Source: a virus. From it: DNA of 35,150 nt. Shown piece by piece: positions 3 through 10,050 of this stretch. The DNA lies in the IMG/VR virus record IMGVR_UViG_3300009466_000007, positions 1-35,150 of that record. The stretch is one strand, 5' to 3'. Position 1 is the stretch's first letter. Every line of letters starts with the position of its first letter. Under the pieces are notes generated by a model. That model saw nothing but the letters and a program-made list of their open reading frames with translations. It did not search any database and had not been told where the DNA came from. The translations under genes were made by a program, and so were the position numbers.

Positions 3-272
3 GACTATGAAGATGGTCCAACCTACTGCTTAAATGTTGATTCACAAGGATATGGAGATCTGTATCAGAGGTCTTGGACTGCTGGATGTCCAGATGTATT
101 TTTTGGAAGAAGTTTTTGTGGAACAACATCAACTACAACACAGGCAACACAGGCTACACAGGCAACAACAGCAGAATGTGTTTATAATGGAGAAGTAACA
201 ATTGTTCCTTGCGGATATAATAATTGTGTTTATAGTAATTGCGGAGAATTCTTAGGTTACACTTCTACATGA
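3..272 (+). CDS. C-terminal part of a Cys-rich, Thr-linker protein (5' truncated)
   Basis: An open frame runs in from the left edge and stops at TGA 270-272, so 89 residues of the C-terminus are visible. It has seven cysteines (motifs PTYC, AGC, SFC, AEC, VPC, NNC, SNC). A Thr/Gln/Ala linker (STTTQATQATQATTAE) separates two Cys-rich blocks, and the composition is rich in Gly, Tyr and Asn. This looks like the tip of an extracellular or virion-surface protein, with disulfide-stabilised modules joined by a flexible Thr-rich linker. I do not recognise the family. The linker is of the kind that is O-glycosylated elsewhere, and the next genes encode sugar- and sulfate-transfer enzymes, but a link is inference. 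The codons used (GGA, ACA, GCA) match the rest of the phage. Confidence 0.7.
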   Translation, partial: DYEDGPTYCLNVDSQGYGDLYQRSWTAGCPDVFFGRSFCGTTSTTTQATQATQATTAECVYNGEVTIVPCGYNNCVYSNCGEFLGYTST

Positions 273-296: not shown

Positions 297-1076
297 TTGG
301 AAATAAATAGACGTTTGTATTTTTTACATATACCAAAAACTGGCGGTATATCGGTAACTTCTCAAATCAGGAATACCCTAAATAAAAACAGTATTCCTGC
401 GTACCCTCCATCTTCACCACCTCATGACGATATTTTTAATAACTATGTATATATTCAGGCACACCTAGCAAACTATCCACTAGATAAAACATCCAATCTT
501 GATGTAGCAACATTGCTACGAAATCCAGTAGATAGATCAATTAGCAACTTTTTGTTTATGTACAAAAACAATAGTTCTTTTGTAGAAAGATATTCTACTA
601 TTGATTCGATGATAAACAAGTTACGATTCTATTTGTTTGAGGATGAAGAGTACTCTTATCATAGAAACATACAGTCTAAGTTTATATGCGGATCACCAGA
701 AAATAACTATTACAAAGATAACAGTTTTACGCTAGAATCTTTAGTTAATAAAAGATCAAAAAATTGGTTTTTAGAGAATAATACGCCATCGCTACAGCAG
801 TCTTTAGATAAGATAAATTCATTTACTATTGTTGGAACAACAGAAAAAATTAATCTTTTTACAAGCAAAGTTAGTGATTGGTTTTTAAATAACTATGGGC
901 TGCCTATACCGTTTGACAACAACTTAATAGTAAATTATTCATCTATTCTTTATGACGGGATTGAGTATAATACACAAACACTAAAAGATATGCTTGGTGA
1001 CTTAGATATTGAGAAAGTCTTGGAAAACAACCTAATTGATTTTGAACTACACGATCACTTATATAACAGGGAGTAA
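297..1076 (+). CDS. Sulfotransferase family protein (PAPS-dependent)
   Basis: A 259-aa protein predicted to move sulfate from PAPS to a hydroxyl, most likely on a carbohydrate. The N-terminus carries the 5'-phosphosulfate loop (FLHIPKTGGISV, residues 9-20, with PKTGG at 13-17). The 3'-phosphate motif is at about 74-83 (LRNPVDRSIS, matching the family consensus LRxPxxRxxS). This is the arrangement of the Sulfotransfer_2 and heparan-sulfate 2-O-sulfotransferase group. There is no signal peptide or membrane segment, so it should act in the cytoplasm. The start is TTG at 297, chosen because GGAGG at 285-289 lies 7 bases upstream and the frame is closed just before. It is the first complete gene of a co-directional cassette ending at the 2816 terminator. 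Family assignment is firm; the acceptor is unknown. Confidence 0.8.
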   Translation: MEINRRLYFLHIPKTGGISVTSQIRNTLNKNSIPAYPPSSPPHDDIFNNYVYIQAHLANYPLDKTSNLDVATLLRNPVDRSISNFLFMYKNNSSFVERYSTIDSMINKLRFYLFEDEEYSYHRNIQSKFICGSPENNYYKDNSFTLESLVNKRSKNWFLENNTPSLQQSLDKINSFTIVGTTEKINLFTSKVSDWFLNNYGLPIPFDNNLIVNYSSILYDGIEYNTQTLKDMLGDLDIEKVLENNLIDFELHDHLYNRE

Positions 1077-1078
1077 CC

Positions 1079-1318
1079 ATGTCTGATAAAGAAAATTTAC
1101 TTGCTAGATATAAAAAAAATCTTGGAGAAACAAGACCTTGGGATTTAATTAATCCAAACACCAGTTTTTTGGAGGTAGAGGATGCTAACAAAAGGTTTGC
1201 TATATGTCAAATGTGTCCAGAGTTTGTTTCGCTTACAACACAGTGCAAGAAGTGTGGTTGTGTTATGAAACTTAAAACTAAATTAGAAAAGGCTACCTGC
1301 CCATTACAAAAGTGGTAG
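1079..1318 (+). CDS. Small zinc-ribbon-like protein
   Basis: A 79-aa protein starting 2 bases after the sulfotransferase stop, with a purine-rich SD (AGGGAG) inside the end of that gene. Six cysteines lie in the C-terminal half: C43-x2-C46, C56-x2-C59, C61 and C74. The core reads ICQMCPEF...QCKKCGCVM...CPLQKW. The two CxxC knuckles would bind one zinc, and C61 and C74 could add a second site. Small proteins of this type occur in aquatic phages close to 2OG-Fe(II) oxygenase genes, as here. The function is unknown. It could be an adaptor or specificity factor for the neighbouring modifying enzymes, or a small virion component. I rate it a certain gene with a speculative role. Confidence 0.75.
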   Translation: MSDKENLLARYKKNLGETRPWDLINPNTSFLEVEDANKRFAICQMCPEFVSLTTQCKKCGCVMKLKTKLEKATCPLQKW

Positions 1319-1327
1319 AAATAATAA

Positions 1328-2209
1328 ATGGAAAAGATATTTGTATCTATAGCATCCTATAGAGATGAAGAGTTGTTAGATACTGTTTTTTCTATTTTAA
1401 GACAGTCTGAAAATCCTCAAAGATTATTTTTATCTATATTTTCTCAAGATAGCAAACACCCAAAGTTGGAAGATATATTTTCTTTATTTGATGTCAAAGA
1501 CTATAATTATGAAAGAGTTCATTATGATGACGCCAAGGGAGTAGGGTACGCTAGGTATAAAACTCAAATCCCTTTAAATAAAACATACAAGTATTATTTT
1601 CAAGTAGATAGCCATACACAGTTTATAAAAAACTGGGACACAGTATTGATTGATGATTATGAAAGGTGTGTTTCAGTTTGGGGAGATTCAATTCTTACGG
1701 CATATCCAGGAACGTATGAATACACAGAAACAGGAAATATTAGGCTTGCATCTTCTCTTACTCCAACATGCTTGAGAGTACAAGATGTTGATGGCCAAGG
1801 TCCCACTAGGTATGAAGCAAAATATAAGCATTACTTTGGACAGGATATGGGAGAATTCCATGGGTTTTTTTGTGGAGGAATGGCTTTTGGATACACAAAA
1901 CATTTCTTAGAGGTTCCATATGATCCTAATATTTATTTTAATGGAGAAGAGCAAACTATGTCTATTAGGTTTTACTGTAAGGACATTAAATTAATCGCTC
2001 CACCAAAAAATTATTGCTTTCATCACTATACTGGTAAAAAAAGAATAAGGCATTGGGAAAATAACGAGGCATGGAAAAAGTACGACGAGTCTGGAATAAA
2101 CAGACTAAATGATTTCTTTGAATACAAACTAAATGACATATATGGTATCTCTGATATAGAAAAATACCATATGTGGCAATTTTGCTTTATAACACCAAGG
2201 GAGAGTTAG
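1328..2209 (+). CDS. GlcNAc-transferase-like glycosyltransferase (PF11397 type)
   Basis: A 293-aa protein with a GT-A-type fold signature. The start IFVSIASYRDEEL (residues 4-16) and the diagnostic QVDSHTQFIKNWD (92-104) contain the metal-binding D-x-H that replaces DxD in this family. Further on come VPYDPNIYFNGEEQTMSIR (196-214) and FHHYTGKKRIRHW (231-243). These blocks match the family of Dictyostelium Gnt1, which adds GlcNAc to hydroxyproline of Skp1 (established knowledge). No signal peptide is present, so it is cytoplasmic. The gene starts 9 bases after the zinc-ribbon gene with a weak SD and is followed 4 bases later by a prolyl-hydroxylase-like gene. The donor is probably UDP-GlcNAc or another UDP-sugar; the acceptor is unknown. 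Confidence 0.82.
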   Translation: MEKIFVSIASYRDEELLDTVFSILRQSENPQRLFLSIFSQDSKHPKLEDIFSLFDVKDYNYERVHYDDAKGVGYARYKTQIPLNKTYKYYFQVDSHTQFIKNWDTVLIDDYERCVSVWGDSILTAYPGTYEYTETGNIRLASSLTPTCLRVQDVDGQGPTRYEAKYKHYFGQDMGEFHGFFCGGMAFGYTKHFLEVPYDPNIYFNGEEQTMSIRFYCKDIKLIAPPKNYCFHHYTGKKRIRHWENNEAWKKYDESGINRLNDFFEYKLNDIYGISDIEKYHMWQFCFITPRES

Positions 2210-2213
2210 GAAG

Positions 2214-2816
2214 ATGGAAATGATAAAAAAAGAATTAGCACCAGGAATAGTCGTATATGAAAATATTTTAACTAATTCCTCTGACATAATTAATGAGTTA
2301 GAATTAAATGTTTCTGATAAAACACTTAACTGGAAGCAAACAAGTGTAAAGGCTGACAATAAAATATCTGTAGACCCTAAGTATAGAGACACAAATTTTA
2401 TATTTGTGAACTACCTAAAGTCTATAAAGGAGTCTCCAAAAACCCCTGCAGATTTTGCAAAAGCAACCTTGTCTGAATATTTCTATAGCGCATTTACAGA
2501 GTGTGAACTTGATTATGGATATGATTATAGGTTCATGCAATCTGAGCACGATGGGTATAGTATTTTAAGGTATTCGGAAGGCCAACAATTTAAGGATCAT
2601 GTTGATGATGCACCAGCCCTACACAGAAGAGTTTCAACAGTTTTTTACATGAATGATGACTATACGGGTGGAGAGATAGAGTTTCCTAGATTTAATCTTA
2701 AGATCAAGCCACAGAAGCATCAACTTTTAATATTTCCATCTACTTATGTTTATAACCATATTGTTCATCCTGTTTTGTCTGGTACCAGGTATTCAGTTGT
2801 TAGTTGGATAAAATAA
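2214..2816 (+). CDS. 2OG-Fe(II) oxygenase, prolyl 4-hydroxylase type
   Basis: A 200-aa protein with the double-stranded beta-helix core of P4H-like dioxygenases in its C-terminal half. YSILRYSEGQQFKDHVDD (115-132) gives the iron ligands H129 and D131. STVFYMNDDYTGGEIEF (141-157) is the family's central strand. HIVHPVLSGTRYSVVSW (182-198) supplies the distal histidine H182 and R192, which binds 2-oxoglutarate. It should hydroxylate an amino-acid side chain, most likely proline, using O2 and 2-oxoglutarate. It lies 4 bases behind the PF11397-like glycosyltransferase and is the last gene before a strong bidirectional terminator, so the cassette from 297 is probably one transcript. The substrate is not known; proline-containing fibre proteins in this window are candidates. 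Confidence 0.85.
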   Translation: MEMIKKELAPGIVVYENILTNSSDIINELELNVSDKTLNWKQTSVKADNKISVDPKYRDTNFIFVNYLKSIKESPKTPADFAKATLSEYFYSAFTECELDYGYDYRFMQSEHDGYSILRYSEGQQFKDHVDDAPALHRRVSTVFYMNDDYTGGEIEFPRFNLKIKPQKHQLLIFPSTYVYNHIVHPVLSGTRYSVVSWIK

Positions 2817-2860: not shown

Positions 2861-3409
2861 TTAGTTGGGAAATTTACTCATCCACTCTTTTGTGCGTGGC
2901 GTTATGCCCTTCCAGGCTGACCAGTCTTCCCCACTATTTGACATGTGAAATGCAATCTGTGCATTTATGACGGGGTTTAATAAATCTGAATTCGAGACAA
3001 GGTTAAACTTCTCTCTACGATCAGGACCAAGCCTTCCAATCATATTAATCTGAAACATACCATAGGAACTGTCTCCAGTTTTGGTATTTCCATTAAATCT
3101 GATTGGTTGCCCATTAGATTCTTTTTTGGCTATTGCCCAAGCCTCCTTTAAATTGTTGCCCCTAAAGCCAACAAGGTATAAAAGTTCCTTGAGTTCACCA
3201 TCGGTTAGAGAACCCTTATTTTCAAACTTTTTTAATTTTTCCTCTGTAGAAACCAAAAAAACCTCTTTCGAGGCTTGGTCTTCAGCAACTACTATTTCAG
3301 TACTTAAATTGTTGCGTTCACTAGCATTGGCACCGTTAAGACCCTGTGCTGCCATTACTATAATCGTGAGTATTCCGATGAGTTTTTGTTTATCTTGTAT
3401 TACGTTCAT
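2861..3409 (-). CDS. Secreted SLT/lysozyme-like cell-wall lysin
   Basis: A 182-aa peptidoglycan hydrolase. An N-terminal hydrophobic segment (about residues 9-29, ending NGANAS) is a probable signal peptide or membrane anchor. The C-terminal catalytic domain (about 72-175) has the lysozyme/soluble lytic transglycosylase pattern: AWAIAKKESNG with likely catalytic E97, then GDSSYGMFQINMIGRLG (112-128) and a terminal DWSAW (162-166). Actinophage and other Gram-positive-phage lysins and virion muralytic domains look like this. It should cut the glycan backbone of the wall, either at lysis after export or at entry. The start is firm: AGGAGGA sits 4 bases upstream on the minus strand. It is the only minus-strand gene in the window and has its own promoter (3458-3487). 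No holin is apparent next to it. Confidence 0.82.
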   Translation of the reverse strand: MNVIQDKQKLIGILTIIVMAAQGLNGANASERNNLSTEIVVAEDQASKEVFLVSTEEKLKKFENKGSLTDGELKELLYLVGFRGNNLKEAWAIAKKESNGQPIRFNGNTKTGDSSYGMFQINMIGRLGPDRREKFNLVSNSDLLNPVINAQIAFHMSNSGEDWSAWKGITPRTKEWMSKFPN

Positions 3410-8778: not shown

Positions 8779-10050
8779 ATGGCAGCAGGTAAGAAATCAG
8801 GCAGAAAGTCCCAAGCGTCAAATGACTTTTTGGAACCATTAGCACCAACAGGTGTTACAGCAACAAATGTAGGAACTGGACGGGCATTTAATAATGGTGC
8901 AATTACTGTATCATTTTCTCTACCAGCACTTTCTCCTGCTGCTACTTCCTTTACAGTAACGGCAAGCACAGGACAGACAGCAACTGGAGCATCTTCTCCA
9001 ATTACTGTAACTGGAATTGCTTCATCCGCAACACCAACATTTACAGTAACAGCGACAAACGCTGCTGGAACTTCTGCTGCATCTGCTGCTTCATCAGCAG
9101 TTACAGTTACAACAGTTCCAGATACAGTTGGAACACCATCAGTTTCTACAGTAGCAATTGGTGGTGCTTCAGCCCAAGGTTCTGCAAATACTGCAACAGA
9201 TACAGTCTCATGGTCTGCTCCAGCAAATGGTGGATCTGCAATTACTAATTACCACTGGACATCATCTGATGGAAAATCAGGGGATACAGCAAGCACATCT
9301 GTAGCAGTATCTCAAGAATCAGGAACAGCACAGACATATACAGTTTATGCTACAAATACTAATGGAAATGGTGGAAGTGGAACATCTGGTTCAATTACTT
9401 CAGCATTTTCATTTACACCATTTGGATTCACACCTTTCGGGTTTGTTCCATTCGGTGCATTTGGTGCATTCGGTGCCTTTGGAGCATTTGGTGCCTTTGG
9501 AGCATTTGGTGCCTTTGGAGCGTTTTCGTTTACACCATTTGGAGCATACAACTTTGGAGGCATTTATAGTTTTGCTCCATGGTTTGACTCAATTGAAATT
9601 AACACAAAGGTTTTAACACCACAGGGATATAAGGCTGTTGGAGAATTAGCAGTAGGAGATAAGTTGATGGCTCTTAATATTCCAAATGGAGATAATACTT
9701 CTTGGCTATCTTGGTCTGCTCAAGACTTATCACTTTCAAATGATATGTTAGTAGAAACAACAGTCATGACTCTTGAAGAAGGCGAATCAGATACATTTAT
9801 TTACATAGATGGAGATCTCTTCGTTGGAACACACTACATCTTAACTAAAAAAGATGGACTAGTAAAATTTATAAGCGCTGCAGAAATAGATAATACATAT
9901 GAGAGATACTCTTACTCAGATGCTGGATTTGTTCAGATTGAATTAGTAGAAGAGATTGTTTCTAGAAATAGAAAAATATCTATTAACTGCGAACCTTATG
10001 ATAACTTCTTTACTGAGAACATGCTTGTGTTTGACCGTCGAGACAACTAG
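8779..10050 (+). CDS. FN3-(FGA)n-Hint domain virion protein
   Basis: A 423-aa protein with an unusual layout. After a basic N-terminus come two Ser/Thr/Ala-rich fibronectin-III-like domains (about 20-112 and 113-208). A phenylalanine/glycine repeat follows (FSFTPFGFTPFG at 210-221, then about nine FGA triplets to about 249). The C-terminus (about 270-420) is a Hint (hedgehog/intein) domain. Block A is SIEINTKVLTPQGYKAVGEL (271-290), followed by VGDK. The block B His lies in FVGTHYILTKKDG (H352), and the block F-like end is YDNFFTENMLVFD (407-419). The usual Cys1 is replaced by Ser271 and the terminal His-Asn by Phe-Asp, so N-side ester chemistry may remain while splicing is unlikely. The SD is TAGGAGA. 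Hint presence is likely, activity unknown. Confidence 0.72.
   Translation: MAAGKKSGRKSQASNDFLEPLAPTGVTATNVGTGRAFNNGAITVSFSLPALSPAATSFTVTASTGQTATGASSPITVTGIASSATPTFTVTATNAAGTSAASAASSAVTVTTVPDTVGTPSVSTVAIGGASAQGSANTATDTVSWSAPANGGSAITNYHWTSSDGKSGDTASTSVAVSQESGTAQTYTVYATNTNGNGGSGTSGSITSAFSFTPFGFTPFGFVPFGAFGAFGAFGAFGAFGAFGAFGAFSFTPFGAYNFGGIYSFAPWFDSIEINTKVLTPQGYKAVGELAVGDKLMALNIPNGDNTSWLSWSAQDLSLSNDMLVETTVMTLEEGESDTFIYIDGDLFVGTHYILTKKDGLVKFISAAEIDNTYERYSYSDAGFVQIELVEEIVSRNRKISINCEPYDNFFTENMLVFDRRDN
9406..9552 (+). repeat. FTPFG/FGA repeat tract with an 18-bp DNA repeat
   Basis: The tract codes FTPFGF-type units and then about nine Phe-Gly-Ala triplets. Inside it an 18-bp unit (GGTGCCTTTGGAGCATTT) is perfectly repeated at 9472 and 9490, with a partial third copy at 9508. 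All unit lengths are multiples of three, so slippage would alter length but not frame. Confidence 0.85.

Follow-up and report, generated by a model that had tools for sequence, protein, structure and literature searches.

The window analysed here is the whole 35,150-base IMG/VR virus record IMGVR_UViG_3300009466_000007. It opens on the 3' end of a tail-fibre/adhesin-like gene, truncated 5' by the record end, which is followed by a cassette of four co-directional genes in the order sulfotransferase (ST), zinc ribbon (ZR), glycosyltransferase (GT) and oxygenase (OX), with a gap of 4 bases between the last two (Table 1). ORF calls confirmed the four genes that an initial annotation had placed at 297-2816, with the same positions, and its four enzyme classes hold on profile matches and on PDB sequence and fold matches. 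An opposite-strand lysozyme-like gene forms the conserved right border of the cassette. A megablast search against phage isolates gave no direct DNA relatives of the window. Its host is likely actinobacterial, because the portal protein and the ribonucleotide reductase are closest to those of actinobacteriophages (Streptomyces phages), the reductase being nearest to that of Actinomycetia phage DSL-LC01.

Table 1. Features of the cassette and of the candidate substrate proteins in the window (L numbers denote loci of the survey).
Feature	Positions	Strand	Basis
3' end of tail-fibre/adhesin-like protein, presumed substrate	3-272	+	Open 5' frame, folded block, tail PHROGs of homologues
Thr-rich, Pro-free linker TTSTTTQATQATQATTA, presumed O-glycosylation target	123-173	+	Sequence; TQAT type
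C-terminal Cys/Tyr module ending GYTST, presumed ST target or docking site	174-269	+	ST association, conserved columns
ST, sulfotransferase, TTG start	297-1076	+	PAPS-type motifs HIPKTGG and RNPVDR; phrog_3347; L168 homologue over PF03567 cut-off
ZR, Cys6 zinc ribbon (DUF6171/phrog_13558)	1079-1318	+	Six Cys, profile matches
GT, PF11397 (GT60-type) GT-A glycosyltransferase, presumed polypeptide alpha-HexNAc transferase	1328-2209	+	PF11397 profile, model, invariant motifs
OX, 2OG-Fe(II) oxygenase, presumed prolyl 4-hydroxylase	2214-2816	+	PF13640, PDB sequence matches, model
SLT_3 lysozyme-like protein	2861-3409	-	PF18896 1.7e-13; same position in relatives
fn3-like protein, FTPFG/GAF repeats (9406-9549), Hint/intein-like C-terminus, second candidate target	8779-10050	+	Homologues by ZR/ST

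Enzyme classes and predicted folds

The four products were characterized by profile searches and, for GT and OX, by structural models, with the following results. First, GT matched PF11397 with an E value of 1.5e-40 (140 bits against a cut-off of 21), and D94-S95-H96, the metal-binding DxD-like motif, as well as G206-E207-E208 are invariant in an alignment of 34 relatives. The model built with this alignment of 34 locus proteins is confident (pLDDT 90) and has a GT-A fold; among solved structures it comes closest to human polypeptide GalNAc transferases, headed by ppGalNAcT-2, and several of these structures contain a mucin peptide. Searching PDB sequences with the profile of GT gave only two matches, both at chance level. 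Among isolate phages only remote matches to GT were found, in XacN1, CM1 and RAS14, and no oxygenase is annotated around the match in XacN1. PF11397/GT60 is recognised from mucin-type polypeptide alpha-GlcNAc transferases and from the Skp1 enzyme (PMC8724618). The family includes mucin-type Thr alpha-GlcNAc transferases (PMC8724618, PMC3769586), and the GT60 enzyme of T. cruzi acts on Thr, with KPPTTTTTTTTKPP as acceptor (PMC3769586). The putative donor sugar and anomeric configuration of GT are taken over from the family name.

Second, OX matched PF13640 (4e-16), and its HxD...H...R site is kept among relatives, with H129, D131 and H182 invariant and R192 present at 90% or more. OX is closest to prolyl 4-hydroxylases by both sequence and fold: the nearest PDB chains by sequence profile are of the Bacillus anthracis P4H (4e-11), and the top folds for its model (pLDDT 94, built with 44 OX relatives) are algal P4H-1, including its (Ser-Pro)5 complex, P. 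putida P4H, PHD2 and a Dictyostelium PHD. Since the models of GT and OX best match protein-modifying enzymes, both are most likely protein-modifying, with reactions that we infer.

Third, ZR matched phrog_13558 (1.5e-15) and fell just under the cut-off for DUF6171 (3.5e-5, 24.5 bits against 27). Fourth, ST matched phrog_3347, 'Galactose-3-O-sulfotransferase' (9.9e-9); Pfam sulfotransferase models miss it, and no ST was found in isolate phages. Of the motifs to which the initial annotation had pointed, the DSH and GEE blocks of GT and H129-D131-H182-R192 of OX are conserved among relatives, and PKTGG and RNPVDR of ST were read directly.

Candidate substrates and linker types in related loci

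We compared approximately 330 viral loci from IMG/VR, fetched with GT, the GT alignment, OX, ZR, ST, a second GT, a cupin gene and the C-terminal module, whose ORFs were called mechanically and classified by profiles built from the same loci. Because these loci were fetched by cassette genes, the frequencies given below are not population values; because repeat classes were defined after the data had been viewed, the p-values are descriptive; and since the loci are still interrelated after removal of near-copies, cell counts overstate independence. In these loci a tail-fibre-like protein with a low-complexity linker is encoded 5' of the cassette.

In the window, this neighbour is the fragment at the left edge, which itself has no Pfam or PHROG profile matches. 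Hits to minor tail and tail fibre PHROGs come from longer homologues in L018, L168 and L030, through their folded part. Its folded block is 82% identical to that of L088/L170 and related to those of L104, L171 and L176, in which the block runs on into another linker. The initial annotation had proposed the whole of 3-272 as a Thr-rich target; the linker, placed here at 123-173, remains a good candidate, and it is of the TQAT type shared with L013/L014/L018, which carry GT and no oxygenase. The second candidate, the fn3-like protein, has FTPFG/FVPFG motifs at 9412-9456 and 9529-9543 that flank GAF repeats, and its homologues in L139, L149, L227 and L234 stand directly 5' of ZR with ST close by. 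Its C-terminus (9565-10035) resembles a Hint/intein-type domain. Related C-termini end the linker proteins of L172, L152 and L299, and in L077 an Intein_splicing match (5e-6) fell below the cut-off, which suggests autoprocessing of tail proteins.

The same folded block, CLNVxxQGYGxxYQRSWTxGCPDxxxGRSFCG, is followed by differing linkers and enzymes in different phages. It continues into TTSTTTQATQATQATTA with ST, ZR, GT and OX in the window; into (TP)n with VTP and into ST, ZR, OX and a second oxygenase, OX2, in L088; into (VTPA)n with ZR and the cupin gene (CUP) in L104; into APTPV with ZR, OX2 and FT1 in L176; and into APPADPP with ZR, and neither OX nor GT, in L152. Over the survey, the following associations were obtained. 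First, poly-Thr linkers go with GT and no oxygenase (5/6 against 1/52, p 8e-6). Second, (TP)n, poly-Pro and APTPV linkers go with OX and/or OX2, often together with GT or another transferase-like gene; for (TP)n and transferases alone the association is suggestive only (p 0.057). In L067, ZR-OX-GT comes after a poly-proline run of 53 residues. Third, VTP repeats go with the cupin gene in 7/7 cases against 0/51 among loci not fetched by cupin (p 3e-9), and in all 34 of the 34 VTP tracts readable overall. Fourth, FFPP repeats, an unusual aromatic-proline sequence, occur mostly with OX and without a transferase. The exceptions are Pro-rich tracts without OX (L118, L150, L152, L159), a poly-Thr tract with OX (L140) and cupin loci without VTP (L285, L309, L320). 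As side observations, the cupin-domain family behind (VTP)n (L104, L105, L106, L155, L250-L325) has a weak AsnA-like match, and FFPPFFPF repeats, sometimes in long runs, occur in tail-type proteins of L016, L117, L121, L133, L144 and L306.

Of 61 PF11397 genes, 24 have a Ser/Thr-rich gene among the 3 genes on their 5' side, against 6/143 control positions (p 9e-10). Pro-rich tracts occur at the same distance 5' of ZR in 60/197 cases against 17/1185 for other genes (p 2e-39, odds ratio 30), and ZR is followed by an adjoining OX in 56/90 dereplicated cases against 209/3543 other genes. Short PF11397 genes (<340 aa) are mostly found between a repeat-rich protein and the opposite-strand lysozyme, with ZR, whereas long ones (mostly ~400-430 aa) are often directly behind (TPSxTPS)n proteins and nearly always without OX. 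Conservation of the hydroxylase-transferase pair, the check put forward with the initial annotation, stands for the short GTs, of which 21/30 dereplicated genes have oxygenase neighbours, but not for the long ones (1/45); OX genes are also present in many cassettes without PF11397. Tandem PF11397 pairs, mostly behind (TPSxTPS)n proteins, were observed in L002, L004, L036, L039, L048, L051, L056, L060 and L065, which suggests two sugars or two acceptor types. In the cultured Synechococcus phage Sf-FS3 (L351), a zinc ribbon, a P4H, a second 2OG oxygenase, epimerases and a glycosyltransferase stand in a row, and this cyanophage is a tractable model.

The window GT is 66-70% identical to its three nearest homologues, in L014, L001 and L016, and on the GT tree it groups with L014, L016, L017, L018 and L019 (SH-aLRT 97-98). 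All five clade-mates are of poly-Thr type and lack OX. In the sister clade every member has OX or OX2, and the tract is (TP)n wherever it is readable, with the exception of one short truncated fragment in L077. The window is the OX-bearing member within an otherwise oxygenase-free poly-Thr clade. A phylogenetic test of oxygenase against proline content on this tree had 1-3 independent contrasts, too small a number for significance.

With respect to ST, all 13 genes of 13 that end in a GYT[SG]T module (CVYxNCGxFxGYTST in the window) are followed by ST (p 3e-22), which starts 13-26 bp 3' of the module, and in an independent scan by the module alone, without use of ST, 14/14 contigs carried ST. 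The initial annotation had placed sulfation, as a possibility, after glycosyl transfer; ST tracks the module and not GT.

A probable modification kit and its alternatives

We consider it probable that the cassette is a modular kit that acts on the adjacent virion protein, which is tail-fibre/adhesin-like, and that the kit is matched to that protein's linkers and C-terminal module. The genes, their families, their predicted folds and the repeat-enzyme associations are what the data show; for the activities, the acceptors, the place in the virion and the advantage gained, we propose the following. First, the PF11397 enzyme would most likely attach a HexNAc in alpha linkage (GlcNAc by family) straight to Thr/Ser of the neighbouring Thr-rich linker, like mucin-type GT60 enzymes. 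Second, OX would most likely hydroxylate prolines of Pro-repeat linkers, which may lie in the FTPFG protein or in the missing 5' portion of the left-edge protein. Third, ST would most likely act on, or be recruited by, the C-terminal module. ZR is a conserved partner, usually of the oxygenase. The modified fibres would be stiffer, protease-resistant or glycan-shielded. A counter-point to this kit is the oxygenase itself, which sits inside a clade of poly-Thr type and is unexplained by the visible left-edge linker, as this offers no Pro.

The initial annotation had instead proposed a Skp1-like two-step pathway, in which OX forms hydroxyproline and the PF11397 enzyme adds GlcNAc there, and for the window we regard this as unlikely. 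Its enzyme classes stood and the pair recurs, since OX and GT adjoin here and in several other GT lineages, L067 pairs its poly-Pro tract with ZR-OX-GT, and Gnt1 and the mucin-type enzymes share one family (PMC8724618). However, the one-residue, two-step pathway is not supported in the window, where the clade-mates of GT have poly-Thr and no OX and the visible linker is Pro-free, and the many OX cassettes without PF11397, together with the single OX neighbour of 45 long PF11397 genes, also argue against it. The Skp1 pathway as such finds no support among the closest relatives. Direct Thr glycosylation appears the simpler reading for the window GT, because the enzyme falls in a poly-Thr, OX-free clade, the linker is Pro-free and GT60 has Thr enzymes; a hydroxyproline-GlcNAc linkage would fit better in other loci, above all L067.

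Hitchhiking, in which a hypervariable adhesin gene end and the genes that follow are swapped as a block with no enzyme-substrate relation, we judge quite improbable. Every linkage is physically close, and as ST directly adjoins the GYTST module, co-transfer by proximity could yield the same pattern. Yet VTP tracks the cupin gene despite the intervening ZR, and often OX, which are common to other types, and this link, which skips shared genes, is the best argument against mere co-travel. Thr/Pro-repeat genes also adjoin PF11397 genes in the bacterial loci L333 and L334 (Methyloprofundus, Pseudoduganella), where proteins with (TDAP)n and (DTPAPT)n repeats are encoded shortly before PF11397. Action on the host surface, nucleotides or 2-oxoglutarate pools (superinfection exclusion, DNA protection, metabolism), instead of a virion protein, is very unlikely, for although such roles have been proposed for phage glycosyltransferases (PMC10202952) and 2OG oxygenases (PMC3037559, PMC9602691), the GT and OX models best match protein-modifying enzymes and the cassette lies within a tail-protein block and co-varies with its neighbour's repeats.

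Beyond the window, the kit may be one instance of a repeat-matched post-translational modification code in aquatic phages, a proposal to which we give somewhat less than even confidence, where each tail-fibre linker type (poly-Thr, Thr-Pro, poly-Pro, Val-Thr-Pro, Phe-Thr-Pro-Tyr, GYTST module) would have its own downstream enzymes. If true, this code would imply mucin-, extensin- or proteoglycan-like fibres, with hydroxyproline O-glycans in some phages.

Significance and comparison with known systems

The roles proposed so far for phage 2OG-Fe(II) oxygenases and many glycosyltransferases are in host metabolism, DNA repair and DNA protection (PMC3037559, PMC9602691, PMC10202952). The link to tail-protein repeats offers a concrete candidate substrate for each enzyme and, if true, would extend mucin-type glycosylation, and possibly that of hydroxyproline, to bacterial viruses from the eukaryotes in which they are mainly known; the kit also bears on how phage fibres are constructed and vary. 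Our literature search found no mention of the combined cassette, or of DUF6171 in phages, and no report in which PF11397 enzymes, together with a prolyl hydroxylase and a sulfotransferase, are matched to the repeats of a linker.

Compared with the GT60/PF11397 enzymes, namely, the T. cruzi mucin Thr enzyme, the Dictyostelium mucin-type enzyme and Skp1 Gnt1, the phage GT belongs to the same Pfam family, far above the cut-off, and shares the GT-A fold. As with the T. cruzi mucin acceptor, it stands beside poly-Thr or Thr-Pro tracts, its closest solved fold being ppGalNAcT; unlike these enzymes, it is a phage gene that adjoins its likely substrate gene, with putative acceptor and donor. Both enzyme classes of the Skp1 pathway (P4H1/PhyA and Gnt1) are also present and adjacent in the window, but no annotated cassette gene was recognised as Skp1 or as an extending transferase (Pgt and others), the conserved target proline is not seen in the window, and the closest relatives are without hydroxylase. 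OX matches prolyl 4-hydroxylases (Chlamydomonas P4H-1, B. anthracis P4H, PBCV-1 vCPH) in sequence, fold and HxD...H...R site, and like them it is associated with TP/poly-Pro-like repeats; it differs in being phage-borne, in a tail gene block, and usually behind a DUF6171 zinc ribbon.

In bacterial serine-rich repeat adhesins, a repeat-rich surface protein is encoded beside dedicated glycosyltransferases. Here, in contrast with such clusters, the protein is presumably a virion protein, hydroxylase, sulfotransferase and cupin are options, and no accessory Sec system was seen. Phage virion glycosylation, for example of mycobacteriophage capsids, likewise relies on a phage-encoded transferase that acts, as we infer here, on virion proteins, and what sets the present loci apart from it is a PF11397 enzyme, a prolyl hydroxylase and a sulfotransferase matched to linker repeats.
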